This document shows positions 22,057 to 40,041 of a stretch of 56,468 nucleotides of DNA, piece by piece. The notes under the pieces were generated by a model. The model searched no databases. It saw nothing but the letters and a program-made list of their open reading frames with translations, and was not told where the DNA came from. Numbering within the stretch: position 1 is the first letter of the stretch; each line of letters begins with the position of its first letter. The DNA comes from Candidatus Cloacimonadota bacterium. GTDB lineage: Bacteria; Cloacimonadota; Cloacimonadia; Cloacimonadales; TCS61. Made by a program: the position numbers and the translations under genes. The DNA lies in contig JAIPGP010000011.1 of NCBI GenBank assembly GCA_021735645.1, positions 1 to 56,468 of the forward strand. The letters are read 5' to 3'.

Positions 22057-22860
22057 ATGATCGCAGATGTTTCGCAAACCGGCAGAATTGTAATTATCAG
22101 AGCAAAAACTCTGGATGTAAATGCCTATCTTATTCTGCAAAAAGATCATACTATCGCGATCGACAGTCTGCTGCTGCCCAGGGACAGTCAGGAACTGGCA
22201 AATATCGCCGCATCTTACGGAAAACCCGTTAAATACCTGATCAATACACACTTTCACAGTGATCACTGTTTGGGAAACCATTTTCTAAAGCAGCCGCAAA
22301 CCACCCAGATCAATCAGGAAGATTATTGGAATACAATAGTCAGAGAAAAGGCTATGATCAATCCCAAACGCCATAAACCCGTGGAACAAAGGAAGCTTAC
22401 CAAACCGGAGATCACCTTTAAAGATGAGTATCTTCTGGATGACATTTTGCTGCTCTCCACTCCGGGACATTCGCCTGACAGCATCTGTATATATCTGCCA
22501 GCAGAAAAAACACTTATCTCCGGTGATACTATCCTTAACACCTGCTCCGGCAGATACAGTCTCCCCTACTTCTTCTGGGGCAGTGCGAATGACCTGATAG
22601 CCAGCCTGCAAAAACTACTCACTTTAGATATAAACACCATCTACAGCGGACACGGATTCCCCTTGATAAAAACTGACAAGATAACTTCTGATCTCACCTA
22701 TCTGCAAAGCCTGATAAATCAGGTAAACAAATATCAATCTCAATCACTCAGCAGCGACGAATTAGCGCAGAAGATCACCATTTCTGATTGTCTGAATTCC
22801 TCAGAAACACCTGCTGTACCACAGGTTCATAAACTGAATATCCAACAGCTTAGAATCTGA
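22057..22860 (+). CDS. Metallo-beta-lactamase-fold hydrolase
   Basis: A 267-residue MBL-fold protein with the metal motifs HFHSDH (65-70), TPGHSPDS, SGDTI and a final YSGHG. No signal peptide is evident, so it is probably cytoplasmic. It resembles glyoxalase II-like hydrolases, but the substrate cannot be named. It follows the deacetylase by five bases and its 3' end overlaps the opposing TrmO-like gene by 11 bases. Confidence 0.85.
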   Translation: MIADVSQTGRIVIIRAKTLDVNAYLILQKDHTIAIDSLLLPRDSQELANIAASYGKPVKYLINTHFHSDHCLGNHFLKQPQTTQINQEDYWNTIVREKAMINPKRHKPVEQRKLTKPEITFKDEYLLDDILLLSTPGHSPDSICIYLPAEKTLISGDTILNTCSGRYSLPYFFWGSANDLIASLQKLLTLDINTIYSGHGFPLIKTDKITSDLTYLQSLINQVNKYQSQSLSSDELAQKITISDCLNSSETPAVPQVHKLNIQQLRI

Positions 22861-23323
22861 ATACAGAATCCCAGTCGAAGGTGGCAGAATCTTCATACCA
22901 TTGGGGCCAGGTGCTGCACCACTGTGGTACAGAAACGTTTTTGATGCGGTCACAGCAGGGGTGATAGGGTTTTATGTCAATGATAGGTGTGCCATTTTCG
23001 GCGTCTATGTAGTAAACTTTTATCAGTCCCTTTTCGTGGTTTATATCAAGCACTTTCACAGCGGTGAGGGCAATGGGATTTGGTCTCATGGGTGAACGGG
23101 TGGCAAATACGCCGATGTCCTCAGGGGCAGCTTCATAAGGTGTTTGGCAGGAAACTTTCTTTCGGGCTGCGGGGTTATCATTATGATGGCACCACCAGAA
23201 TATCTGCAGGTGACTAAATCCTTCCAGTTTTTGCATGGCAACCACATATTCAGGTTTGATCTTTAGAAAATAATTTCCGCCTTTGACTACAACTTCGCCT
23301 ACGGGCATTATTTCAATTTTCAT
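22850..23323 (-). CDS. TrmO/TsaA-like tRNA methyltransferase family protein
   Basis: A 157-residue protein matching the TrmO (YaeB) beta-barrel family: it starts with KIEIMPVGEV, then LEGFSHLQIFWWCHH, the signature FATRSPMRPNPIALT (SAM-binding and catalytic region), and DIKPYHPCCD. TrmO N6-methylates t6A37 in tRNA-Thr. I chose ATG 23323 because GGAGGG lies just upstream; the frame runs seven codons further back. It is shorter than E. coli TrmO, lacking the C-terminal domain. The exact substrate is unverified. Confidence 0.8.
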   Translation of the reverse strand: MKIEIMPVGEVVVKGGNYFLKIKPEYVVAMQKLEGFSHLQIFWWCHHNDNPAARKKVSCQTPYEAAPEDIGVFATRSPMRPNPIALTAVKVLDINHEKGLIKVYYIDAENGTPIIDIKPYHPCCDRIKNVSVPQWCSTWPQWYEDSATFDWDSVFRF

Positions 23324-23414
23324 ATTCCCTCCAGTTATAAACATACCCTATTATCAGCCAGATTGCTGTCAATATCAAATATATCTGTTAGTAGAAGTTT
23401 ACAAAGCAAGAATG

Positions 23415-23766
23415 CTGGCATCCCCCCGAAATTGAAACAATTTCTGCAGCTAAGTCATACGTGCACCGCTGGGTATTTTCAGGGTCGCAGATGACGACCA
23501 TTATCAGCAGATTACAGTATAATATATTTCTCAGGTTGAAATTTTGAATAGATTAGTTGATTGGTCGTAGTTTTCACCCCACTTTCGGAGTACCGCCAGC
23601 GGTGCAAGTCCTACTTAACTAACTCTAATTTAAGGGAAAGTCACTGAAGTGACTACACCGTGTTCGTACATCAAAACGCCCCCAAATGAATTTTGGGGTT
23701 AATGAGAATGTTTTTCCCAGCTACTTTTGGTGACCTACAATGAAATTAATTTCGGGGGGATAATAG
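23415..23766 (+). mobile_element. MITE-like noncoding element, copy B
   Basis: The outer ends are inverted repeats, ATCCCCCCGAAATT at 23420-23433 and its exact complement at 23748-23761, preceded on the left by CTGGC. Inside are imperfect inner inverted repeats of about 24 bases around TGCACCGCTGG (23449-23472 and 23596-23619). Smaller hairpins follow, such as GTCAC-TGAA-GTGAC and CCCCAAA-TGAA-TTTTGGGG. The left 200 bases match copy C (27909-28216, inverted) closely. It has no coding capacity, so any mobility would need a transposase supplied elsewhere. Confidence 0.65.
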
Positions 23767-23785
23767 TAAGAAAGGAAGAATATGC

Positions 23786-23815
23786 TTGACACAATTTTAC
23801 ATAATTATGTATTAG
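23786..23815 (+). promoter_or_regulatory. Putative sigma-70-type promoter
   Basis: TTGACA at 23786-23791 and TATTAG at 23810-23815, spaced 18 bases, lie about 40 bases before the chosen start of the small exported protein at 23857. The spacing is one base longer than the ideal. Confidence 0.45.
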
Positions 23816-23856
23816 ATACATATATTTACCAGATTAAAATGTTATCAGGAGGAACT

Positions 23857-24273
23857 ATGAGTTATTCGTTAACAGGAAGTAAAGTTGTCTCACTTATTTT
23901 AGCTTTGCTTTTATTTTCAATGCCTGTTATTTTGAAGGCACAGCTATTAGAAGAACAAGCTAAAGATCAACAGTCTGCCGAACAGACCTATGCACAGGGG
24001 CAATTAGATGGCAAGCGAGATGCCAAAGGAAATCCGCTCTGGATACTGGCAGGATGTGGTTGCGGACTTTTTGGAGTTCTGGGAGCTATATTAATTAAAC
24101 CAAATCCACCCGCACAGAAGTTAATCGGCAAATCGAATGATTATGTTTTAGGATATACTGAGGCATATAAGAAGGCAGCGTCCGGTAAAAATACCGGTTA
24201 TGCTTTTGGAGGCTGGGCAGCATATTTAATCGCATATTTTGCCAGCGGTGGCTTTGGGACGATGGAACAATAA
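23857..24273 (+). CDS. Small exported glycine-rich membrane protein, unknown
   Basis: A 138-residue protein of no family I recognise. I chose ATG 23857, which has AGGAGG six bases upstream; upstream in-frame codons overlap the promoter. It has a signal peptide or first membrane segment (about 10-28, ending LKAQ), a Gln-rich stretch, a GQxDGKRDAKG motif, and a Gly/Cys-rich hydrophobic segment (WILAGCGCGLFGVLGAILI). A GYTEAYKKAA motif and a final Gly-rich helix follow. It is insulated from the next gene by a strong terminator. Confidence 0.65.
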   Translation: MSYSLTGSKVVSLILALLLFSMPVILKAQLLEEQAKDQQSAEQTYAQGQLDGKRDAKGNPLWILAGCGCGLFGVLGAILIKPNPPAQKLIGKSNDYVLGYTEAYKKAASGKNTGYAFGGWAAYLIAYFASGGFGTMEQ

Positions 24274-24280
24274 CCAGATT

Positions 24281-24316
24281 ATCAGGATATAGCATGCTAT
24301 ATCCTGATTTTTTTTT
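24281..24316 (+). terminator. Rho-independent terminator
   Basis: ATCAGGATATAG and CTATATCCTGAT form a perfect 12-bp stem around CATG, followed by nine T residues. It lies eight bases after the stop of the small exported protein gene. Confidence 0.92.
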
Positions 24317-24355
24317 ATCATTAAATATTAAAATAATGTAAATAAATAGGATATT

Positions 24356-25051
24356 ATGAGGAAAGTACTTTTTCTGGGATTATTTATTTTGTTAGTATTT
24401 TGTCTGTATAGCCAAAAATATGATACTATTCAGGTAGGAATCAACCGCAAGATCATTACGGGTGGTAGTGAAGAATCTGTAAGTGGTAAGATTTATTATG
24501 ATGGAGATAAAACTACAATAGTGATCAGTGAGCCTTTGCTGCAATGGATGATAGTGGAAGATAATTCCATGCTGATTTATTATCCTGATGAACTGAAAGC
24601 AATCAAGCTTAATACCCGTAACCCTGTGACCTTGCCATTTTTTAAGACATTTATTGGTGTGATAAATGAGAATCTGGGGTTAGCGGAACTTGGTTACACT
24701 ATCGACCGTAATGAAGTAGTGGAAGATACTCTTTTCTTATACTGGAATCCGCCTCAGGTTCTGGCAAAAACTTTTGGACAGCATATCCTCAAACTAAAAG
24801 ATAATAAAATAGTCTATAGCGAGCAGCAAAATAAAAAAGGAAAGATACTCAGCAAGACAATCTATTCTGACTATATGGAAGTGAATAATTTCACTTTCCC
24901 CTTGCAGGTGGAATCTTATGTCTATGAGAAAAAGTCTGTCTCTGTTGAATTGATCACCTATTCAAATCCAATCTTCAATGGAAAACTGCCCGAAGAGATT
25001 GAGTTATTTACTCTTCCAGATAATATTGAGGTTAATGAAATTGACTGGTAA
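24356..25051 (+). CDS. LolA-like exported protein
   Basis: A 231-residue protein with a signal peptide (about 1-19, ending LYSQ) and a pattern of antiparallel strands like LolA-type lipoprotein carriers: VSGKIYYDGDKTTIVISEP, a middle LIYYPDELKAI strand, and a C-terminal LQVESYVYEKKSVSVELITYS. LolA-fold proteins carry lipoproteins or lipids across the periplasm. The family call rests on strand pattern and length, not on a strict motif. It opens a four-gene run with the exported YidD-like protein and two TPR proteins. Confidence 0.6.
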   Translation: MRKVLFLGLFILLVFCLYSQKYDTIQVGINRKIITGGSEESVSGKIYYDGDKTTIVISEPLLQWMIVEDNSMLIYYPDELKAIKLNTRNPVTLPFFKTFIGVINENLGLAELGYTIDRNEVVEDTLFLYWNPPQVLAKTFGQHILKLKDNKIVYSEQQNKKGKILSKTIYSDYMEVNNFTFPLQVESYVYEKKSVSVELITYSNPIFNGKLPEEIELFTLPDNIEVNEIDW

Positions 25052-25492
25052 ATGCCAAACTTGAAACTTGCTAGTCTGATTCTGATCATCTTTTTTAGCA
25101 GCAGTTTGGTTTATTCAAACCAGCTTGCCTCCGATCTAAGTTTTATCAGAGAACACAATCCCGCTTTCAAAGCAGCCATTTCTGAGGACTTATCATATGA
25201 TTTCAACCAGAGCTCAGAATTGAAACTCACTATTCTGTTTATGATCCGGACTTATCAGAATTATATATCTTCCCAGCAGAATAGTGTATGCACCTTCACT
25301 CCAAGCTGTTCCAGATTTGGTTATTATTCAATCCGGAAATATGGCTTTTTTTATGGGGTATTGATGACTTCTGACAGATTCCTGCGTTGTCACGGATTCT
25401 CCGCTGACTACTATCCCTATTCATCTGCTGCCGGCAAACTGGATGATCCGGTGGACCAATACTATATGGGGCACATAAAACATGAAAATTAG
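25052..25492 (+). CDS. Exported YidD-domain protein
   Basis: A 146-residue protein with a YidD-like domain (about 50-125): IRTYQNYISSQQNSVCTFTPSCSRFGYYSIRKYG, then DRFLRCHGFSADYYP. This parallels the CRFxPTCSxYA and RILRCHPFHPGGYDP motifs of true YidD, a copy of which is present at 51864-52082. It differs by an N-terminal signal peptide (about 1-22, LVYSN), predicting a periplasmic or membrane-anchored location. The start follows the previous stop without a gap. The function is unknown; a link to envelope protein assembly is an inference. Confidence 0.8.
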   Translation: MPNLKLASLILIIFFSSSLVYSNQLASDLSFIREHNPAFKAAISEDLSYDFNQSSELKLTILFMIRTYQNYISSQQNSVCTFTPSCSRFGYYSIRKYGFFYGVLMTSDRFLRCHGFSADYYPYSSAAGKLDDPVDQYYMGHIKHEN

Positions 25493-26342
25493 AGTTCTTT
25501 TAGTAATATCAATATTCTGCTTTATTAATAATTTATGTTCTGAAAGTGGCTATTACACTCCTCAGAATATCCATTCCTTTGCCGAACATCTCTTCCAGGA
25601 AGGAGATTATTTACGTGCTGCCGGTGAATATGAACGCTATCTTTACCTTAAAGAAAATACTGACGCAGCAATTCTATATAAAATTGCACTTTGTTATGAG
25701 CTTTCACACCAGCCGGATAAAGCTGTCAGGTATTTTAATAAAATCATACAGGAATCTCAACAGCCTGAGCTTATCACTGCCTCTCATTATCAAATTGCCC
25801 ATGTATTCTACTTTACCCACAAATACCAGCAGTCAAATCAATATCTTTTGAACCATAGCCAGCAATTTAGCTCGCCAAAGAACCGGCAAAAAGCTGAATT
25901 GCTGCAAGGCGTAAATCTGCTTTATCAAAAAGACTGGAAAAATGCCGGTAATATCTTTTCATCATTAGCCTCACCTGAGAGACCAAAGATCCAGCAGCTC
26001 AATACTTTATCGCTCTCAGGTTCGCAATTGAAGTATAAAAAGCCGGCTATTGCCGGATGCTTATCGGCAATAATTCCCGGGACAGGTAAATTTTACAGTG
26101 GCAGAATTTCGGACGGGTTATATTCGTTTATTACCATAACCCTTTCAGCCTGGCAGGCTTATGAAGGTTTTTCCGATGATGGAGAGCAGTCATTAAAAGG
26201 GTGGATATATGGGGGTCTGGGCACTGTATTTTATCTTGGCAATATCTATGGCTCGGTGGTATCCGTAAAATTGTATAATAACAAATTAGATGAAAAAATA
26301 TTAGATCAAGTCAACATAGATTTAATCTGGACAATAGAGTGA
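25482..26342 (+). CDS. TPR protein with C-terminal membrane module
   Basis: A 286-residue protein with a signal peptide (about 1-20), several TPR-like helical pairs (about 30-170; DYLRAAGEYERYLYL and PDKAVRYFNKII), and a C-terminal module. That module has AGCLSAIIPGTGKFYSGRISDGLYSF and two hydrophobic segments, similar to the PGxGxxYxG motif of DUF5683-type membrane proteins. It overlaps the YidD-like gene by 11 bases and its own paralogue by four. It probably acts as a scaffold at the inner membrane; the partner is unknown. Confidence 0.65.
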   Translation: MKIRVLLVISIFCFINNLCSESGYYTPQNIHSFAEHLFQEGDYLRAAGEYERYLYLKENTDAAILYKIALCYELSHQPDKAVRYFNKIIQESQQPELITASHYQIAHVFYFTHKYQQSNQYLLNHSQQFSSPKNRQKAELLQGVNLLYQKDWKNAGNIFSSLASPERPKIQQLNTLSLSGSQLKYKKPAIAGCLSAIIPGTGKFYSGRISDGLYSFITITLSAWQAYEGFSDDGEQSLKGWIYGGLGTVFYLGNIYGSVVSVKLYNNKLDEKILDQVNIDLIWTIE

Positions 26343-27211
26343 TAAAACTATCTCAAAATTGCAAAACTATTATCATCTCTGCTCTGTTCCTGCTCAGCAT
26401 TTCTGCAATTCTGCAAGCAAATGATGAATGCCTGGCAATTGCTGAAAGCTTTGCTGATAATGGCAATTATGAATTTGCTGTCACTGAATATAAAAGATAT
26501 CTATTCCTGAATCCTGAAGCTGATAATAGAGATGATATCTTATATGCCATAGGAATAGCATATCGGAATCAGGAAAAATGGCAGGAAGCAATTGATTACC
26601 TTGATAGAGCAATTGCCATATCTGAGAGTGATAGTCTAAAAGACAGCAGAAAAATCGCCAAAGCAGTTATTTACCTGGCGCAGCAGAAGTATAACCTGGC
26701 AGAATTCGAGCTGCTCCGCATTAATACTTTCTCCCGCTATGAAGAAATACGGAATACGGCTGATTTCTTTCTCGCTCTCTGTTTCCTCTATACCGCCGAA
26801 TGGGAGAAATCTCAGCAGGCATTAACTGATTATCTGGGCAGTTCACCAGAAATGCAAATCAAAATCGACTCCTTTTTTGCTCAAACTTCTGAGCTTAAAT
26901 ATAAATCGCCCCGGCTGGCAAAGTGGTTTTCTACTTTTTTACCGGGTTCCGGGCAGATTTATGCGGGTAACTATCATGACGGATTTAATGCCCTTATCAT
27001 TAACTCCCTGAATTTTTACCTTTTTTTTGATTCACTATCTGAACGCCGAATTAATGACGCCTTGATCGGACATTTAACCTTTTGTGAAAGATATTATCGT
27101 GGCAACAGGCATAATGCCGAGCAGACAGCCATTTCCTATAATAATAACCTTAATCAGAAATATAGTCAGACAATCCTGGATTATCTCAGTAATTATCTCA
27201 AAGATTTTTAA
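26339..27211 (+). CDS. TPR protein with C-terminal PGxGQIY membrane module (paralogue)
   Basis: A 290-residue protein starting at GTG that overlaps the previous stop (GTGA). The architecture matches its neighbour: signal peptide (about 1-27), TPR helices (YEFAVTEYKRYLFLNP, WQEAIDYLDRAI), and a C-terminal module with FSTFLPGSGQIYAGNYHDGFNALI and a hydrophobic stretch. Overall similarity to the neighbour is low but collinear, so the pair is probably an old tandem duplication. It is the last gene of the envelope block; no terminator hairpin follows. Confidence 0.65.
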   Translation: MIKLSQNCKTIIISALFLLSISAILQANDECLAIAESFADNGNYEFAVTEYKRYLFLNPEADNRDDILYAIGIAYRNQEKWQEAIDYLDRAIAISESDSLKDSRKIAKAVIYLAQQKYNLAEFELLRINTFSRYEEIRNTADFFLALCFLYTAEWEKSQQALTDYLGSSPEMQIKIDSFFAQTSELKYKSPRLAKWFSTFLPGSGQIYAGNYHDGFNALIINSLNFYLFFDSLSERRINDALIGHLTFCERYYRGNRHNAEQTAISYNNNLNQKYSQTILDYLSNYLKDF

Positions 27212-27535
27212 GTTCCAACCCTGATCCTCCATCAAAGACTTCCTATAGGTCCTATAAGTCCTATATGACCTATAAAAATATCCTCACAGAAAGCTCCTCC
27301 TCACTCAGCCCATATCTCCCCATCCGTGCAACATATAGGCAAGAAGCAACCTGGGTAATTAATTACTGATGTTCCCGACTTGTCTAAGTGTGGAAAATTG
27401 AAAGCAGAAATGTAACTATTCATTGAATATTGTACCATTGGAAATAACAAGGCTTGAATTGAAAATGATCTTTTGGGGGAGGTGTACTTAGATATTTATG
27501 TATCATCAGGTTGAGTGACGGGCTTCAAAAAAAAT

Positions 27536-27556
27536 GATCAATCAAGATGATTGATC
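27536..27556. repeat. Short palindrome related to the 335-439 family
   Basis: GATCAATC and GATTGATC form an 8-bp perfect stem around AAGAT, followed by TCTACG context like the GATTAATCTAC next to the third hairpin near 430. The kinship is suggestive only. Confidence 0.45.
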
Positions 27557-27908
27557 TACGTTTGGGGAAATTAAAAATATTGGGTATGTATTTGTGAAAA
27601 TAGCGAAAAACGTGGCCGACACAGATTAAAGCGATACTAATTAGATAAATAGCCGGTCACAATATGGTCACATTTTATTTGAGTGTCGTAAAAAGCTATA
27701 TAATATGTGATTATGGTTATGAAAAACAGTTTATAAGTCATTTTTTATCAAAAATCAGTGAAAAGACTCACCGGATTGTATTATTTTAGGAATCCAGGAA
27801 ATCAAAGATCATGATAATTGTGGTTAAGATAATTACTTTCAGTTCGGTTTGTTAGTGGCTGAATAGAATTGAAGGTTAGAAAGTTGGAGAGTTTGAAAGT
27901 TAGACACT

Positions 27909-28216
27909 CTGGCATCCCCCTGTTTTTTTGTTTTCATAGCAGGAGTTTTAATGATAATTGACCAGTTAAGTAGGACTTGCACCGCTGGCGGTACTCCTAA
28001 AGTGAGGCGAGAACTACGACCAATCAACTAATCTATTCAAAATTTCAACCTGAGAAATACATTATGCTGGAATCTGCTGATAATGGTCGTCATCTGCGCC
28101 CCTCGTAGACCGTGCCGTAGCCTTGTGCAGCGTAAGCGAAGGATGGACCTGGAAATACCCAGCGGTGCACGTATGACTTAGCTGCAGAAATTGTTTTAAT
28201 TCTGGGGGAATGCCAG
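27909..28216 (-). mobile_element. MITE-like noncoding element, copy C, between direct repeats
   Basis: The ends are CTGGCATCCCCCTG (27909-27922) and the inverted CTGGGGGAATGCCAG at the other side. The inner inverted repeats around TGCACCGCTGG lie at 27965-27988 and 28159-28182. Relative to copy B it carries about 50 extra bases between the left inner repeat and the central block, and its right-hand segment is much shorter. AGTTTGAAAGTTAGACACT occurs on both sides (27890-27908 and 28215-28233), as if the target had been duplicated on insertion. Confidence 0.68.
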
Positions 28217-28510
28217 TTTGAAAGTTAGACACTAACTTGACAGGTATTTCATATTTTGTTTGCGTTTGTTCGCGTTTGTTCGCGGCTAAATAAATCTTGT
28301 ATTACATTCTCTTCTTGTGAACGCAGTGGACATAGTGGACGTAGTGGACATAATTTTGAAATAGCAGTTAACTTTCATTCAATTTTATCACATTACATTT
28401 CTTTATTTTTCGTGTCATTTCGTGGCTTTCGTGGTTAAAATCTTGCATTACATTTCGCAGAGCATCAGTGGTTGATAGCTTGAAATTTACTAATTTTTAT
28501 CTCACCTTAC

Positions 28511-28624: not shown

Positions 28625-31600
28625 ATGCGTAAAATTTGTTTATTGGTTTTTGTATGTCTGCTATTCAGCCTTCAGGGCAAGCAGATTCAATTTGATGATC
28701 TGTATTATGAAGAAGGCTTGAATATCACGGCTGAAAGTCCGACCGGTATTGAACTTAGCTATTCCATGAAAGACTTTGAAATTAGTGATATTACAATTGA
28801 CGGCAAGACCTGGGATCAGATTTTGATTTCGGATAAACTGCTTCCCGGAGCTGAAGGTAAACCGGATGTGCCCAATATATCTACTTATCTCGCCCTGCCT
28901 CAAGGCGCCAGAGCAAGTGTAAAGATAATTGATTATCGGACAGAAACGTTTACAGGTCTGGAAATAGCTCCCGCTCCCCGGATACCACTGGAAACTGAGG
29001 ATGGACTGGAATACCCGCTTAATACTGAGGTGTATGCCAGTGATAGTTATTATCCAGCCGATCAGCTAGTGATTGGAGATAATGATCTGATCCGTGGGGT
29101 GGATTGTATGCCGATAGCAGTAAATACCTTCCGTTATAATCCAGTAACAAAGGAACTTCTGGTAATTCGCGACATCAAAATAGAGATCAGCTTCTTAGGC
29201 GGAAATGGACATTTTGGTGAAGACAGACTGCGCAGCCGCTGGTGGGAACCAATCAATCAGGCACTTTTCATCAATCATAACAGCCTGGCAGAAGTGGATT
29301 TCAATCATCATACCCAAAACCGCACGCTAGACTATGAATATCTGATCATCTGTCCTGATGATGAAGATTTTATCGCCTGGGCAGATACTATCGCTGCTTT
29401 CCGTAATAAACAGGGAATCCGCAGCGGGGTAGTTACCATTTCTGATATTGGTGCCAATAGTTACACTCAAATCCAGAGCTATATAGATGATGCGTATAAC
29501 GACTGGGATATTCCTCCGGTTGCTTTCCTGCTGCTGGGCGATTACGGCTCCACCGGCAATACAATCGTTGCTCCTATCTGGGATAACTACTGTGTGTCTG
29601 ATCTCATTTATGCAGATGTGAACTATAATGACATGCCAGATATGGCTCACGCCCGGATCACAGCCAGAGACCCAGACGAACTGGAGACCATGATCATGAA
29701 AGCACTGGATTATGAAACTGACCCGCCCACGAACCCTGATTTTTATAATCATCCGGTTTCGGCTGGCGGCTGGCAAACAGAACGCTGGTTCATTCTCTGC
29801 TCGGAAGCTGTTTATGGTTTCTGGGCAAATGAACTGGGTAAAGAGCCTATCCGCGAATATGCTATATATGCCGGAACTCCCGGTACAGTCTGGTCAACAG
29901 CTACTAATACGGCTACTGTAGTAAATTACTTTGGCCCGAATGGTCTGGGCTATATCCCAGCAACTCCAAATGTGATCACTGACTGGGGCGCAAATGCAAC
30001 ACGCGTGAATCAGGACATCAATGATGGCTGCTTCATGATCCAGCATCGTGACCATGGTGGAGAAGACGGCTGGGGCGAACCAGCGTATTACAATAGTAAT
30101 CTGAATGCTCTGGAAAATGAAGACCTCACATTTGTATTTTCCATCAATTGCCTCACAGGAAAATATAACTGGAATAATGAATGCTTCGCAGAAGCATTTC
30201 ATCGTCATGCCCAGGGAGCTTTGGGCTTGATAGCTGCCTCGGAAGTATCATACTCATTTGTTAATGATGCTTATACCTGGGGAATGTATGACTATATGTG
30301 GCCAGATTTCATGCCTGATTATGGTGAAGCAGGCGAGCCAAACCTGCTGCCCTGTTTTGCCAATGGCTATGGCAAGATATTCCTGCAGCAGAGTGACTGG
30401 CCCTATAACACGGAGAATAAGGAAGTTACCTATAATTTATTTCATCATCATGGTGATGCATTCACCCGTCTTTATTCCGAAGTGCCGCAGGATTTGACTG
30501 TTATGCACGATCCTGTGCTGGTATCAGGTGCAACTTTCTATACTGTTTCTGCTGATGAAGGAGCTTATATCTGTCTTAGTATTGACGGAGAGATTCTGGC
30601 TACCGCCGAAGCTACCGGTGAACCTCAGACAATTATAGTGGAACCTCAAATGCCGATGAACGTTATGGATATAGTAATCACCAAACAGGAATATTACCGT
30701 TATGAGACTTCAGTGCTGATCATACCTCCAGACGGTGCTTATATAGTTTATAACTCCGTGGAAGTGGATGATGCTGCCGGAAATAATAATGGACAGGCAG
30801 ATTACAATGAATCGGTTCTGCTTGATCTCACTTTTGAAAACATTGGAAATGATGAAGGAATCGACGTAGTTGCCACTATATCCTGTGATGATGAATATAT
30901 CACGCTCACGGAACCGGAAGCCCAGGTAGGACTTGTACCGGGTGACACACTCTGGACTATGCAGGATGCCTTTGAACTGGCAATAGCTGATGACATACCT
31001 GACCAGCATCGCGTGCTCTTCACTCTGGAAGTCACTGATGAAAACGCTGAAATCTGGACTTCATATTTCGCGATGGATTTCAATGCTCCTCTGCTGTATG
31101 CTTCCGGCTACCTGATCAATGATATAGAGAATGGCAATGGTGACGGTATCTTTGATGCCGGTGAAACAGTAGATTTTATTATCACTACTGAGAACCGTGG
31201 TCATTCATTAAGTCCCGATGCCGTCAGTACAATTTTCTGTTCAAGTATGGATATCACAGTCAATAACTATTCCTTCCCCTTAGGTGAGATTGCCGTTGAT
31301 GAACCGGTGAATGCCATCTTCTCGCTCACAGCAGACAGCACTATGCACATAGGCACCCAGATCACCTTGAACTATTCGGTTGCATCCGGGAACTACTCAA
31401 TAAACAGGGATTTCCGCACTTCTATCGGCATCACTTCCGAAGGCTTTGAATCTGGTGATTTTCTCAGTTTTGACTGGACATTTGAGGGGAATGCTGACTG
31501 GGTGATCGATACTGACCATCAGGAAGGTGATTATAGTGCTCAAAGCGGGAATGTGTCTGACAACCAAAGCTCTGCTCTCGTAATGGAAGTGGATTTCCTT

Positions 31601-32887
31601 TCCGATGCAAATCTCAGTTTCTACAAGAAAGTTTCTTCGGAAGCAGGATTCGATTTCTTACGCTTCTCACTCGATGATGAAGTATTAGGCGAATGGAGCG
31701 GAAATGTGGACTGGAGCGAAGAAGCCTATTATATCCGCTATGGCAGTCACACTCTCAAATGGGAATTCGTAAAAGATGGCGGAACTTCTTCAGGTGATGA
31801 TTGCGCCTGGGTAGATTATATCATTTTCCCGCCGATCGGTTCTCCTGCTCCTCCGGTTCTACACGTTAATCCCATTATGCTTAATCTGGAAGCTGATCAA
31901 TATTCTGTGCTGGAAGAAACTATCAACCTCAGCAATATTGGTGGTGGTACTATTCTTTACTCAGTGAGAACGGAAAATCCTACTAATAGAAATATCGAAG
32001 AATGCTATATCACGAATTCTACTACTATATTTGAACCAGGTGAAACCACTACCTGGATGTTCACCATATATAATAACAGCGCTGATAATGAATGGATTCA
32101 GGGTGCTTCCATTCAATTCCCCGATGGTGTGACGGTGGACAATGCCCATAACTTTATTATTGCCAATGACCGCGTGATGGAATGGGACGGAACAACCGGA
32201 AATGGTGCCCTGCTTAACTGGTTTGGCATTACTCCATCCGGTTATGGCGTCCTGCGCGGCGGAGAACATGTTACCACTAGTATTGATGTTTCTATCAGTG
32301 AAAACTTCACTGGCGTGATGGAACTCAGTTATTCCATCTTTGGCGATGGTTACGGTTATGAACCTCATGAGGCCTATGGCACTCTGGAACTCACCTACCC
32401 ACTTTCCTGGATAGGTCTTAATCTGCAGAATGGTGCCTTGAACAGCAGTGAAACTGACCCGGTGGTCATCTCTATTGATGCCACTGACCTGGAAGAAGGA
32501 ATGCACCTCTGCGATGTGGTGATCAGCTCCGAAGATATCTATGCAGATGTCCATGTACCCATTGTGCTCAATGTTACTTTCACTGGTGAAGATGATAATG
32601 ATATTCCATTGATCACCAGCCTCAGCGGTTGTCATCCGAATCCTTTCAACCCGGAAACCACTATCAGCTTCCAGCTCAGCACTGCTGCACCTGTCACACT
32701 GGAAGTATATAATATCCGTGGTCAGCTCGTGAAAACTCTTGTAAACGATTTCAGACAGCCCGGAAATTATGACATCATCTGGAAAGGAGTAGATAATTCT
32801 GATCGCTCTGTTTCCTCCGGCGTTTATTTCTACAGAATGCAGGCTGATGATTATCTTCAGACTCGCAAAATGTTATTATTGAAATAA
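28625..32887 (+). CDS. Gingipain-like C25 cysteine protease with T9SS-type sorting domain
   Basis: A 1420-residue secreted protein: signal peptide (about 1-18), gingipain-type propeptide (about 20-235), and C25 peptidase domain (about 236-620). The catalytic pair is H477 in HRDHGG and C509 in SINCLTG, about 32 residues apart as in Arg-gingipain. Ig-like and MAM-like beta domains follow, and a sorting domain ends the protein (NPFNPET to LLLK). It probably acts on or outside the outer membrane in proteolysis or protein processing. AGGAGG precedes the ATG. It has no operon partner, and a strong terminator follows. Confidence 0.88.
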   Translation: MRKICLLVFVCLLFSLQGKQIQFDDLYYEEGLNITAESPTGIELSYSMKDFEISDITIDGKTWDQILISDKLLPGAEGKPDVPNISTYLALPQGARASVKIIDYRTETFTGLEIAPAPRIPLETEDGLEYPLNTEVYASDSYYPADQLVIGDNDLIRGVDCMPIAVNTFRYNPVTKELLVIRDIKIEISFLGGNGHFGEDRLRSRWWEPINQALFINHNSLAEVDFNHHTQNRTLDYEYLIICPDDEDFIAWADTIAAFRNKQGIRSGVVTISDIGANSYTQIQSYIDDAYNDWDIPPVAFLLLGDYGSTGNTIVAPIWDNYCVSDLIYADVNYNDMPDMAHARITARDPDELETMIMKALDYETDPPTNPDFYNHPVSAGGWQTERWFILCSEAVYGFWANELGKEPIREYAIYAGTPGTVWSTATNTATVVNYFGPNGLGYIPATPNVITDWGANATRVNQDINDGCFMIQHRDHGGEDGWGEPAYYNSNLNALENEDLTFVFSINCLTGKYNWNNECFAEAFHRHAQGALGLIAASEVSYSFVNDAYTWGMYDYMWPDFMPDYGEAGEPNLLPCFANGYGKIFLQQSDWPYNTENKEVTYNLFHHHGDAFTRLYSEVPQDLTVMHDPVLVSGATFYTVSADEGAYICLSIDGEILATAEATGEPQTIIVEPQMPMNVMDIVITKQEYYRYETSVLIIPPDGAYIVYNSVEVDDAAGNNNGQADYNESVLLDLTFENIGNDEGIDVVATISCDDEYITLTEPEAQVGLVPGDTLWTMQDAFELAIADDIPDQHRVLFTLEVTDENAEIWTSYFAMDFNAPLLYASGYLINDIENGNGDGIFDAGETVDFIITTENRGHSLSPDAVSTIFCSSMDITVNNYSFPLGEIAVDEPVNAIFSLTADSTMHIGTQITLNYSVASGNYSINRDFRTSIGITSEGFESGDFLSFDWTFEGNADWVIDTDHQEGDYSAQSGNVSDNQSSALVMEVDFLSDANLSFYKKVSSEAGFDFLRFSLDDEVLGEWSGNVDWSEEAYYIRYGSHTLKWEFVKDGGTSSGDDCAWVDYIIFPPIGSPAPPVLHVNPIMLNLEADQYSVLEETINLSNIGGGTILYSVRTENPTNRNIEECYITNSTTIFEPGETTTWMFTIYNNSADNEWIQGASIQFPDGVTVDNAHNFIIANDRVMEWDGTTGNGALLNWFGITPSGYGVLRGGEHVTTSIDVSISENFTGVMELSYSIFGDGYGYEPHEAYGTLELTYPLSWIGLNLQNGALNSSETDPVVISIDATDLEEGMHLCDVVISSEDIYADVHVPIVLNVTFTGEDDNDIPLITSLSGCHPNPFNPETTISFQLSTAAPVTLEVYNIRGQLVKTLVNDFRQPGNYDIIWKGVDNSDRSVSSGVYFYRMQADDYLQTRKMLLLK

Positions 32888-35523: not shown

Positions 35524-38500
35524 CTATTTGAGCAGGATAAGTTTCTTCGTTTCGCTGTTTTCAGCAGTAATAAATTTCAATAGATATATCCCGCTGCCAT
35601 AATTCTCCGCATTCCAGGTAACTTGATGACTGCCAGCCTCAAAAGGCTCATTGACCAGAGTTATTACTTTCTGTCCTTTTATGTTATAGATTTCCAGCAG
35701 GGCATTACTGCCAACCGATAATTCAAAGAGAATATTAGTCTCAGGATTGAAAGGATTAGGATATATAGTCAGGCAATCTTTCATCGGTTCCAGGTCATCC
35801 ACTTCATTAGAAGTATATGGACTTTCATAAGCTCCCATATCGGGCGCAGAACCATAATATTCATCATCACTAAGATCAACTAAGACTTCGCCTCCATACT
35901 CAAAATAACTGGTCCCGGCATCAATACAAGGAGAATCCTCGGTCAGATTATAATTCCCTAACTCTGCATCCACAAATAAAGGATCAGCATCAATATTACC
36001 TTCTAACCAGTTAACTGTACCATTATTGTTGGTCTCTATTCCCTCTTCTCCACCTTCAATATCAGAATAGGCAATTGTTATTGTAAGTGGGTCATAATTA
36101 TGATAAAATTCAACTTCCTGTGGTAAATTATTCCAAAAAATACTGTTTACTAAGGTTGGATTGGAAAAAGAGCAGTAAATCCCACCGCCATAATCAGCCG
36201 AATTATTCGTAATTGTCGCATTCTCTAAACTCGGACTGGAAGCACAGCAGTAAATACCACCACCAGATTCAGCCAAATTATTCGATATAGTAACATTCTC
36301 TAAATTCAGACAGGAACTATTCTGGCCGAAAATCCCACCACCACGACTCTCAGCCGAATTATTCGTAATTATTACATTTTCAAAACTCGGATTGGATGAA
36401 TGGTTGCAGAAAATCCCACCTCCATCATCAGCCGAATTACCCGATATAGTCACATTCACCAAACCCGGTCTTGAATTTTCCCAGCAATAAATCCCGCCGC
36501 CACGACATTCAACCGAATTATCCGTTATCATCACATTCTCTAAACTCGGATTGGAAGAAGAACAGAAAATCCCACCGCCACTAACAGCCGAATTTTCCGT
36601 AATCGTCACATTCCTTAAAATCGGACTGGAAGAATAGCAATAAATCCCACCGCCATTACATTCTGGCCATTCTCCCATTGCATATCCATTAGTAATTGTC
36701 AAATATGAAATTGCAACATTTACCGCATTATGGAACCTGATCACTCTCGCTGCTCCTTCCGCATCAAGAATTACAGTATCTTCATAATATCCTGCTAATG
36801 ATACATAATCAGGTAAATTTATAGGGAAATATTCTGCATTAATCGAAGGACTGTAAGTACCTTCTTCAAGATAAATCGTGTGATGATTTTGACTATTAGC
36901 CAATATAACAGAACAGGCATACTGGATTGTCTGTAGAGGATCATCCAAAGTTAAACCTGTATTGGAATTATTTCCTGAAGGTGACACGAAAAGATTAGCA
37001 TTTATCTGTTCCTGTAATCCCTGTAATATATCAAAAGTGAAGTTTTGAATCGGAGTAGCATGAAAATCTGTCGGATTTGACACCGTGAAGGTATCAACTA
37101 TGACATATAAATTGCTGTCAGAATAAATATCACTGCCAATATTTCGATTGTTTGTGTTATTCAAATAAATATTGCAGCGATTTTCACTGCTGAATACTGG
37201 ACTGGAATATTCACTGTAAATACCACCGCCAAATTCATCAGCCGAATTATTCGAAATAGTAACATTCTCTAAACTCGGACTGGAATTTTCCCGGCAGAAA
37301 ATCCCACCGCCCATTTCATCAGCCGAATTATCCGAAATAATCACATTCTCTAAACTCGGACTGGAATGCCAGCAGTAAAGCCCACCACCTTCAATCCCAG
37401 CCGAATTATCCGTAATCGTCACATTCTCCAAACTTGGACTGGAATTCCCCCGGCAATAAATCCCACCGCCACTATCCTCAGCCGAATTACTCGTAATTGT
37501 CACATTCTCTAAACTTGGACTGGAATCCTCCCGGCAGTTAATCCCACCACCAAGTCTAGCATGTCCATTAGTAATTGTTAAATCTGATATTGTCACATTT
37601 TCTGTATTATAAAGCCAGATAACTCCTGCTGTTCCTTCTGCATCAAGAATTACTCCTGTTTCACTTTCACCGCATAATGAAACAAAATCCGGTATATTTA
37701 CTGGAAAAAATTCACTATTAATTGAGGGGCTGTAAGTACCCTCTAAGAGATTTATAGTATGAGGATCAGATTCATTAGCAAATATGATAGAGCAGGCATA
37801 CTGAATTGTCTGTAAAGGATCATCAATAGTTAAGCCTGAGTTGCTGTTAAGCCCTTCAGGTGAAACAAAAAGGTCAGCATTTACCTGCTCCTGAAATCCT
37901 TGTAAAATATCAAAAGTGAAGTTTTGAATCGGAGTAGCATGAAAATCTGTCGGATTTGACACCGTGAAGGTATCAACTATGACATATAAATTGCTGTCAG
38001 AATAAATATCACTGCCATTACCTCGATTGTTTGTATTATTCAAATAAATATTGCAGCGACTTTCACCGCTGAATACTGGGCTGGAATATTCACTGTAAAT
38101 CCCACCACCATAATATCCCGCAGAATTATTCGAAATAGTCACATACGCTAAACTCGGACTGGAACCAAAGCAGTAAATCCCACCGCCATAAATCTCAGCC
38201 GAATTATCCGTAATCATTACATTCTCTAAACTTACATCAGAAGAATACAGGCAGTAAATCCCACCGCCCATTTCATTAGCCGAATTATCCGAAATAATCA
38301 CATTCTCTAAACTCGGACTGGAATGCCAGCAGTAAAGCCCACCACCACTATCCTCAGCCGAATTACTCGTAATTGTCACATTCTCTAAACTTGGACTGGA
38401 ATCCTCCCGGCAGTAAATCCCACCACCAAGTCTAGCATGTCCATTAGTAATTGTTAAATCTGATATTGTCACATTTTCTGTATTATAAAGCCTGATAACT

Positions 38501-40041
38501 CCTGCTGTTCCTTCTGCATCAAGAATTACTCCTGTTTCACTTTCACCGCATAATGAAACAAAATCCGGTATGTTTACTGGAAAGAATTCATCATTAATTG
38601 AGGGGCTGTAAGTACCTTCTGAGAGATATATAGTATGAGGATCAGATTCATTAGCAAGTATGATGGAACAGTCATACTGGATTGTCTGTAAAGGATCATC
38701 AATAGTTAAGCCTGAGTTGCTGTTAAGCCCTTCAGGTGAAACAAAAAGATCAGCATTTACCTGCTCCTGTAATCCATGCAAGATATTGAAAGTGAAGATT
38801 CCAATCGGGAAAGCATGAAAATCTGTCGGATTTGCCACTGTGAATGTATCAACTATGACATTTATATGAATACAATCATAAGAATAAATATCACTACCAT
38901 AACCTCGATTGCTTGTGTTATTCAGATAAATGTTACAGCGATTTTCACTGCTGAATACTGAATTGGAAGAAAGGCAAGACATCCCACCACCATGTTCAAT
39001 TGCTGAATTACCCGTAATCGTCACATTTTCTAAACTCAGACTGGAATAATCGCAGTAAATCCCACCGCCTTCAGATCCAGCCGAATTTTCCGTTATCTTC
39101 ACAACCTCTAAATTCAAACTGGAGCCAAAGAAGAAAATCCCACCGCCATCTCCTCCAGCCGAATTATTAGTAATTGTAACATTCTCTAAAATCAGAACGG
39201 ATTCATGGCACCAAATCCCACCACCACAATCAGCCGAATTATCAGTAATTGTCACATTTGCTAAACCCGGACTGGAATTTTCACGGCAATAAATCCCACC
39301 TCCACTACTCTCTGCCGAATTACCAGTAATTGTCACATTCTCTAAACTTGGATTGCTAAAATAACGGCAGTAAATCCCACCACCACGATTAGCCGAATTA
39401 TCTGAAATAGTCACATTCTCTAAACTCGGACTGCTGGAATAACGGCAGTAAATCCCACCACCTTCAATCCCAGCCAAATTATCCATAATAGTCAAATTCT
39501 CTAAACTCGGACTGGAATTTTCCCGGCAATAAATCCCACTGCCATAATAAGCCACATTATCCCTAATCGTCACATTTTCTAACCTCGGACTGGAAGAATC
39601 GCAGTGAATTCCACCACCATAATACTCAGCCGAATTATCCATAATAGTCAAATTCTCTAAACTCGGACTGGAATAAATGCAGTTAATCCCACCGCCAGCA
39701 TAAGACTGCCCATTAGTAATCGAAAAACCGGTTAATACAGAAGTAGAATCTTCATCATTTTCAAATGTGACTACAGAGCCATTTTGATTGCCATCAATGA
39801 TTGTTTGCGAAATATAGCTTGTATCCTGGGTAGTATAAAACAGCGAACCCAGAATTACTGCTTTACCATTGAAATCAATATTCTCCACATATGTGCCAGG
39901 TGCTGCAATAATCTCGTCTCCATCATCAGAGGCATTAATTCCTAACTGAATAGTTGGGTAATCTTCCGGTATGTTTATAGTTATTGCCAGCGCACCTATT
40001 GTCATAAACATAAAAATTAATAATATAATTTGCTTTCTCAT
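35524..40041 (-). CDS. 1505-residue beta-helix surface protein with T9SS-type sorting domain
   Basis: The largest of three beta-helix paralogues in the window. It has a signal peptide (about 1-19), then four helix modules joined by LFVSPxGxNSNxGLTxDDPLQTIQY linkers (near residues 432, 722 and 1014), built from about 25-residue coils such as SLENVTITDNSA and GGGIYC. A sorting domain (about 1430-1505, NPFNPET to LILLK) ends it. Two modules share nearly identical DNA with an 876-base period. It is likely surface-exposed and adhesive or glycan-binding; no active site was identified. The ATG has AGGC upstream but no strong ribosome site. Confidence 0.85.
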   Translation of the reverse strand: MRKQIILLIFMFMTIGALAITINIPEDYPTIQLGINASDDGDEIIAAPGTYVENIDFNGKAVILGSLFYTTQDTSYISQTIIDGNQNGSVVTFENDEDSTSVLTGFSITNGQSYAGGGINCIYSSPSLENLTIMDNSAEYYGGGIHCDSSSPRLENVTIRDNVAYYGSGIYCRENSSPSLENLTIMDNLAGIEGGGIYCRYSSSPSLENVTISDNSANRGGGIYCRYFSNPSLENVTITGNSAESSGGGIYCRENSSPGLANVTITDNSADCGGGIWCHESVLILENVTITNNSAGGDGGGIFFFGSSLNLEVVKITENSAGSEGGGIYCDYSSLSLENVTITGNSAIEHGGGMSCLSSNSVFSSENRCNIYLNNTSNRGYGSDIYSYDCIHINVIVDTFTVANPTDFHAFPIGIFTFNILHGLQEQVNADLFVSPEGLNSNSGLTIDDPLQTIQYDCSIILANESDPHTIYLSEGTYSPSINDEFFPVNIPDFVSLCGESETGVILDAEGTAGVIRLYNTENVTISDLTITNGHARLGGGIYCREDSSPSLENVTITSNSAEDSGGGLYCWHSSPSLENVIISDNSANEMGGGIYCLYSSDVSLENVMITDNSAEIYGGGIYCFGSSPSLAYVTISNNSAGYYGGGIYSEYSSPVFSGESRCNIYLNNTNNRGNGSDIYSDSNLYVIVDTFTVSNPTDFHATPIQNFTFDILQGFQEQVNADLFVSPEGLNSNSGLTIDDPLQTIQYACSIIFANESDPHTINLLEGTYSPSINSEFFPVNIPDFVSLCGESETGVILDAEGTAGVIWLYNTENVTISDLTITNGHARLGGGINCREDSSPSLENVTITSNSAEDSGGGIYCRGNSSPSLENVTITDNSAGIEGGGLYCWHSSPSLENVIISDNSADEMGGGIFCRENSSPSLENVTISNNSADEFGGGIYSEYSSPVFSSENRCNIYLNNTNNRNIGSDIYSDSNLYVIVDTFTVSNPTDFHATPIQNFTFDILQGLQEQINANLFVSPSGNNSNTGLTLDDPLQTIQYACSVILANSQNHHTIYLEEGTYSPSINAEYFPINLPDYVSLAGYYEDTVILDAEGAARVIRFHNAVNVAISYLTITNGYAMGEWPECNGGGIYCYSSSPILRNVTITENSAVSGGGIFCSSSNPSLENVMITDNSVECRGGGIYCWENSRPGLVNVTISGNSADDGGGIFCNHSSNPSFENVIITNNSAESRGGGIFGQNSSCLNLENVTISNNLAESGGGIYCCASSPSLENATITNNSADYGGGIYCSFSNPTLVNSIFWNNLPQEVEFYHNYDPLTITIAYSDIEGGEEGIETNNNGTVNWLEGNIDADPLFVDAELGNYNLTEDSPCIDAGTSYFEYGGEVLVDLSDDEYYGSAPDMGAYESPYTSNEVDDLEPMKDCLTIYPNPFNPETNILFELSVGSNALLEIYNIKGQKVITLVNEPFEAGSHQVTWNAENYGSGIYLLKFITAENSETKKLILLK

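Follow-up and report, generated by a model that had tools for sequence, protein, structure and literature searches.

Miniature elements of a Cloacimonadota genome, probably targeted to sites 3 nt upstream of TTGACA, share their ends with an IS4-like transposable element

Targeted insertion that spares genes, either beside transcription signals or at safe sites, is well known from yeast Ty3/Ty1 and from bacterial Tn7; any likeness of those systems to the elements described here is functional only, the machinery being unrelated, and no membership is claimed. Closer in kind are the CREE/Correia elements of Neisseria, miniature inverted-repeat transposable elements (MITEs) whose insertion duplicates either TA or a 3-5 bp target similar to the -10 box (PMC9330008, consulted in part). 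Here we describe a family of MITEs in the genome of a Candidatus Cloacimonadota bacterium, starting from two copies in one window (the whole stretch of DNA analysed, 56,468 nucleotides of contig JAIPGP010000011.1), and an IS4-like insertion sequence (IS) that has the same ends. As with CREE, the targets of these bacterial MITEs look like a promoter hexamer; unlike in CREE, the hexamer is -35-like and lies outside a duplication of 9-17 bp. The resemblance to the IS4 family, as far as the sections of its description consulted go (PMC2266710), includes a transposase encoded by a single open reading frame (ORF) with all residues of the Y-(2)-R-(3)-E-(6)-K motif and D-D-E spacing in range, and 5'-CT/CA ends. 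The duplication (9-17 bp, mode 13) may correspond to the helix turn or so that is usual in that family, but it runs beyond the 7-13 bp of the IS4 subgroup rows, and the base-exact relation to TTGACA does not appear in the sections consulted. In the open-access literature searched, no IS with a -35 target rule is reported, the nearest seen being the -10-like target of Neisseria CREE (PMC9330008). We put at roughly 0.8 the probability that the repeats are MITEs mobilised in trans and that this IS4-like family has sigma-70 promoters as its target, inserting immediately upstream of the -35 box.

The host genome (G000; 3.77 Mb in 151 contigs, 95% complete, with the window as contig C122) contains the terminal 12-mer CTGGCATCCCCC at 149 sites with at most one mismatch, compared with 2 for the reversed 12-mer, and the repeats are thus well past chance expectation. 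There are two kinds of end, with 103 L-type sites (GCATCCCCC[CT]G[AG]AATT; control, 0) and 85 R-type sites (GCATCCCCCTGTTTT[AT]; control, 3) at up to two mismatches, all counted as sites not individually checked. A detailed sample comprised the DNA around part of the sites (379,166 bases on 73 contigs); it holds 175 12-mer sites at up to two mismatches, some of them by chance, from which a script formed 39 L-R pairs. Most of these paired elements are 252-361 bp long, and they are short and multicopy, with terminal inverted repeats and no ORF, as MITEs are. Their interiors fall into types B (n=15), A (n=14), and C (n=7), plus one pair and one singleton; since several passengers share one pair of ends, the interior is what varies. 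The initial annotation had proposed a nonautonomous family with variable interiors from the two window copies, and the many copies (a nucleotide search with the left one matches 55 places in the host genome), conserved ends, target duplications, lack of an ORF, and autonomous partner in a sister genome all bear this out. Another repeat, CAGTAGGATTTCACAAATAGCACCAAGTTTCTGGCATCCCCCTACGC... (G000 C96:23905, C20:5680, C63:2315), has the 12-mer without following the L/R end rule.

Target duplications of at least 9 bp with no more than two mismatches flank 24 of the 39 paired elements, compared with 53 of 1,482 mismatched-flank control pairs. They range from 9 to 17 bp with a mode of 13, and perfect examples include the right window copy and C37 (both 17 bp), C151 (14 bp), and C26 and C132 (both 13 bp). 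Going outward, the L-end is followed by the duplication, NNN, and TTGACA. For these 24 elements, the hexamer exactly 3 nt beyond the L-end duplication is TTGACA in 14; three have TTGACA displaced by one base, two have part of a neighbouring element, and TTGACT, TTGCCT, TTGATA, TTGTAA, and GTTTGC occur once each; at the same place beyond the R-end, TTGACA is not among the eight commonest hexamers listed. In the 16 elements that have both a duplication and an exact TGTCAA (TTGACA on the opposite strand), the two are separated by 3 nt in 14 cases and by 4 nt in the other two. Exact TGTCAA is present within 30 nt outside 35 of 55 non-tandem L-ends and 0 of 54 R-ends (Fisher p 1.6e-14), usually 16-17 nt away, and most of the other 20 L-ends show a variant with one mismatch about as far off, a few not being true ends. 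The same holds for 8 of 10 non-tandem L-ends in the same-genus genome G001 and 6 of 6 in G002. Elements also stack: 15 pairs are joined in tandem through spacers of 12-17 bp (three further rows of that table were read as chance), and in C28 and C84 successive spacers are near-identical, as expected for repeated insertion at a target restored by duplication.

The hexamer is positioned with respect to genes. L-ends with a TGTCAA-like site (44 examined) point towards the gene start in 38 of the 39 cases in which a called gene lies within 500 bp, compared with 10 of 29 for R-ends (40 examined; p 1e-8), although it counts against these figures that the gene calls come from a simple ORF heuristic. 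Upstream of 51 host genes free of elements, TTGACA has 22 sense and 3 antisense occurrences within 150 nt, mostly 44-74 nt before the start; this positioning on the sense strand suggests that it is probably the host -35 box. An aminotransferase-like gene (named from its sequence) has TTGACA upstream without an adjoining element in G001, and in the host an array ends 17 nt before the same TTGACA, a comparison that is one-sided because the upstream side of C116 is cut by the contig end.

The initial annotation had suggested looking for a matching transposase with the same ends, and the lead to one came from G047 and G021, where L-type ends are followed by ORFs. A full element in G001 (C203) consists of CACTCATCCCCCCGAAATTAAAATA, a 456-aa ORF, and AAAAACGGGGGGATGCCAG, and is flanked by TTTTGTAATAA and then ATA-TTGACA; it has both ends of the MITEs and a duplication, as an autonomous partner would. 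Five further full-length relatives from across the order (G019, G028, G039, G050, and G055) likewise have a duplication, 3 nt (3-4 in G039), and TTGACA past the 3' end of the transposase gene, the spacings in all six having been judged by eye. When 23 loci from a profile search were scanned with a regular expression, 11 had an R-like end adjoining transposase sequence, all of them with TTGACA within 55 nt; among the others, the motif was absent, was due to chance in one (L265), or only the 5' end was present (L269). The profile has matches in 29 of the 59 relatives searched. The protein, a single ORF in all six full-length copies, carries DDE_Tnp_1 (PF01609); Y343, R346, and E350 of the YREK motif are invariant in 8 of 8 sequences, with K in the seven not truncated there, and D118 or D121, D208, and E350 would form the catalytic triad, judging by their invariance and by spacing within the IS4 range D(60-110)D(100-150)E. 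Scores against the NCBIfam IS4 and IS701 models all fall below cut-off (best IS4, 73 bits against 152), so that we file the transposase as IS4-like, with no named subgroup. A search of solved structures gave one weak match, to the Tn5 inhibitor protein (E 0.67), and a Pfam search with N-terminal fragments alone gave nothing useful. Large terminal inverted repeat pairs in the host (C3, C15, C16, C26, C45, and C151) were considered as autonomous copies and rejected, as they enclose ordinary host ORFs. Downstream of the transposase at L238 (G055:C68), the IS copy adjoins an array of TTGACA and TGTCA motifs, which may be binding sites of a regulator that served as the target.

We infer from these patterns that the MITEs are deletion derivatives mobilised in trans by the IS4-like DDE transposase, and that TTGACA acts as a -35 box in vivo and is contacted by the transposase, alone or as part of a complex, possibly through direct reading of the hexamer. 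One point of strand transfer would be fixed 3 nt upstream of TTGACA, with the second placed more loosely, 9-17 nt (mode 13) further upstream. The duplicated bases would thus lie directly upstream of the -35 region, in the order element, duplication, NNN, TTGACA, gene, leaving the promoter intact. Duplication would also restore the target and permit further elements to insert at the same promoter, giving tandem arrays, and the sparing of promoter and gene on landing would account for the high copy number.

Several observations sit poorly with this scheme. A profile search of the host genome found no intact transposase, and the only trace of an autonomous element found there is a decayed C-terminus (C75:12158-12543), followed by TTGACA and a gene. 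The autonomous copy in G001 has TTGACA on both sides. The MITEs turn their L-end, which is homologous to the 5' side of the transposase gene, towards TTGACA, but the transposase-bearing copies turn the 3' side there, although by sequence similarity (G001 MITE ends in L188 compared with L233) the MITE R-end corresponds to the transposase 3' end. Duplications at the threshold are missing from 15 of the 39 paired elements, among which are chimeric, nested, or wrongly paired ends (for example C125, C17:9976, and C45:10973), and in G015 exact TGTCAA borders just 3 of 7 non-tandem L-ends. The -10 signal that follows TTGACA is weak, with a mean best match of 3.40 of 6 positions compared with 3.16 after shuffling (38 of 1,000 shuffles reach 3.40); TTGACA sites upstream of element-free genes score alike (3.42). 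In the window itself, the type-A end of the left copy departs from the 3-nt rule, the TGTCAA that it faces being 42 nt off, and 388 nt separate the TTGACA of the right copy from the next start codon, so that it is at most a possible promoter element of the gene at 28625-32887.

The alternative that survives best, although we consider it a good deal less probable than targeting by the transposase, is that promoter-bound RNA polymerase holoenzyme or sigma factor sets the insertion position, as a bacterial analogue of Ty3 at Pol III promoters. Insertion at the upstream edge of the -35 element, with a fixed proximal and variable distal cut, is what a bound polymerase might impose, and TTGACA does behave like a host -35 motif; however, the spacing to the hexamer is exact to the base, and a poor -10 accompanies TTGACA at some sites. 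It is unlikely that the type-A interior is primarily a functional hairpin, of RNA or DNA, that has been domesticated and retained for regulation, with mobility secondary. The right window copy, a long imperfect hairpin, does fold at -100 kcal/mol (z -4.95), and arm-like units without element ends occur as tandem repeats of ~100 bp (L047, G000:C108, 3885-4188 and 4910-5114, direct repeats of which half resembles one type-A hairpin arm), but the ends are common to two other interior types, and fold-back interiors are common among MITEs. We give very little weight to loosely AT-directed insertion in which selection spares only the copies upstream of promoters; the genome is compact and, of 44 L-ends, just one is located within a called gene, but selection of this kind leaves unexplained the 3-nt gap in 14 of 16 elements and the absence of exact TGTCAA from all 54 R-ends.

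The 3-nt spacing before TTGACA holds for the right window copy, which has a true R-type end, CCCCCTGTTTT, and agrees in its ends and interior with 13 other paired type-A elements of the host (Table 1). In some type-A copies one arm, or both arms opposite each other, is lengthened by an additional segment; the extension in the right copy is of this kind, and in some other copies (the extra segment is present in C43, C116, and C123) the facing arm carries a complementary one. The left copy is different and, from its sequence, is a chimera in which two L halves, of types A and B, are fused. Its type-A half is ~95% identical to the best other copies across 206 nt, and its type-B half matches 35 places, the best of which lack a type-A half. 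The initial annotation had described two inverted copies with a variable right-hand part and a conserved end, and the positions, the shared arms (23481-23620/27964-28103, 140 nt, 94%; 23415-23483/28148-28216, 69 nt, 93%), and the inner inverted repeats (27963-27988/28159-28184 in the right copy) are indeed present. The right end of the left copy is another matter: it is a type-B L-end without GCCAG, whereas the right copy finishes in an R-type end, so that the supposedly variable part is a junction between two element types rather than a stretch with a common end.

The inverted copies bracket a block (23767-27908), and it had been suggested that this block moved or inverted as a composite unit, which we now regard as highly improbable. 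A perfect duplication flanks the right copy, and inversion between the copies would split such a pair; the possible duplication at the left copy differs in sequence and is degenerate (11 of 13 positions, to be read against the mismatched-flank control given above), and no outer duplication flanks the whole unit. The two copies thus appear to have inserted independently, in which case the block is no unit of movement. A query with one gene of the block found only weak relatives in two same-genus genomes, G001 and G002. Weakest of all is movement by a Cas1-type casposase, which we reject because a DDE transposase gene, and not a Cas1 integrase, lies between the same ends in G001 and because G015 has many copies with no Cas1 match, even though the duplication is near 14 bp, arrays form at one target, and the host has one Cas1.

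Table 1. Features of the two element copies and their surroundings in the window
Feature	Position	Strand	Remarks
Right copy, complete type-A MITE, 308 bp	27909-28216	-	R-end at 27909, L-end at 28216
Target-site duplication outside R-end, right copy	27892-27908		17 bp, TTTGAAAGTTAGACACT; identical to 28217-28233
Target-site duplication outside L-end, right copy	28217-28233		17 bp; perfect match to R-end-side copy
TTGACA, -35-like hexamer	28237-28242	+	Exactly 3 nt (AAC) beyond duplication of right copy
Optional arm extension within type-A hairpin, right copy	28105-28150 (limits approximate)	-	GTCCATCCTTCGC...
Next gene downstream of right copy	28625-32887	+	Start codon after AGGAGG, 388 nt from TTGACA
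Left half of type-A element (left copy)	23415-23620	+	L-end CTGGCATCCCCCCGAAATT and hairpin core
L-end half of type-B element (left copy)	23621-23766	-	AATAG in place of outermost GCCAG
Inner inverted repeat, arm 1, left copy	23448-23472	+	
Inner inverted repeat, arm 2, left copy	23596-23620	+	
Possible degenerate 13-bp duplication, left copy	23401-23413		ACAAAGCAAGAAT; 11/13 match to 23769-23781; weak evidence
Possible degenerate 13-bp duplication, partner, left copy	23769-23781		AGAAAGGAAGAAT
TTGACA facing away from type-B L-end of left copy	23786-23791	+	19 nt from element end, 71 nt before start codon at 23857
Gene with promoter bordered by left copy	23857-24273	+	Start codon after AGGAGG
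TGTCAA (TTGACA on - strand)	23367-23372	-	42 nt outside type-A L-end of left copy

The TGTCAA outside the left copy could be the -35 box of the divergent gene at 22850-23344. An Rfam scan of the whole window returned two tRNAs as the sole matches above gathering score, with no meaningful weak matches in 23300-28320. Short tandem repeats of 9-10 bp, of the GTGGACATA and GTCCTATAA types, lie at 28317-28352 and 27245-27275, and the host has similar ones in other intergenic regions, among them L011 and L029. Near-matches to the terminal 12-mer at 37439, 37520, and 38396 are in repeated segments of an ORF (35524-40041, - strand) and are probably internal protein repeats.

Taken more broadly, we think it somewhat better than an even bet that a transposon lineage extends across a Cloacimonadota order in which the target code is the sigma-70 -35 element, with insertion a fixed 3 nt upstream, a variable far cut, a promoter kept working, repeated stacking, and upstream regions decorated genome-wide with structured DNA. 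How a duplication arises from one cut that is fixed and another that varies is a clean biochemical question about strand transfer, and the transposase, if the targeting is as proposed, would be a tool for placing DNA just upstream of promoters. Insertion beside promoters would allow the elements to multiply in a compact genome without breaking genes. Every insertion would then mark a promoter, and the elements would serve as natural promoter maps of uncultured bacteria.

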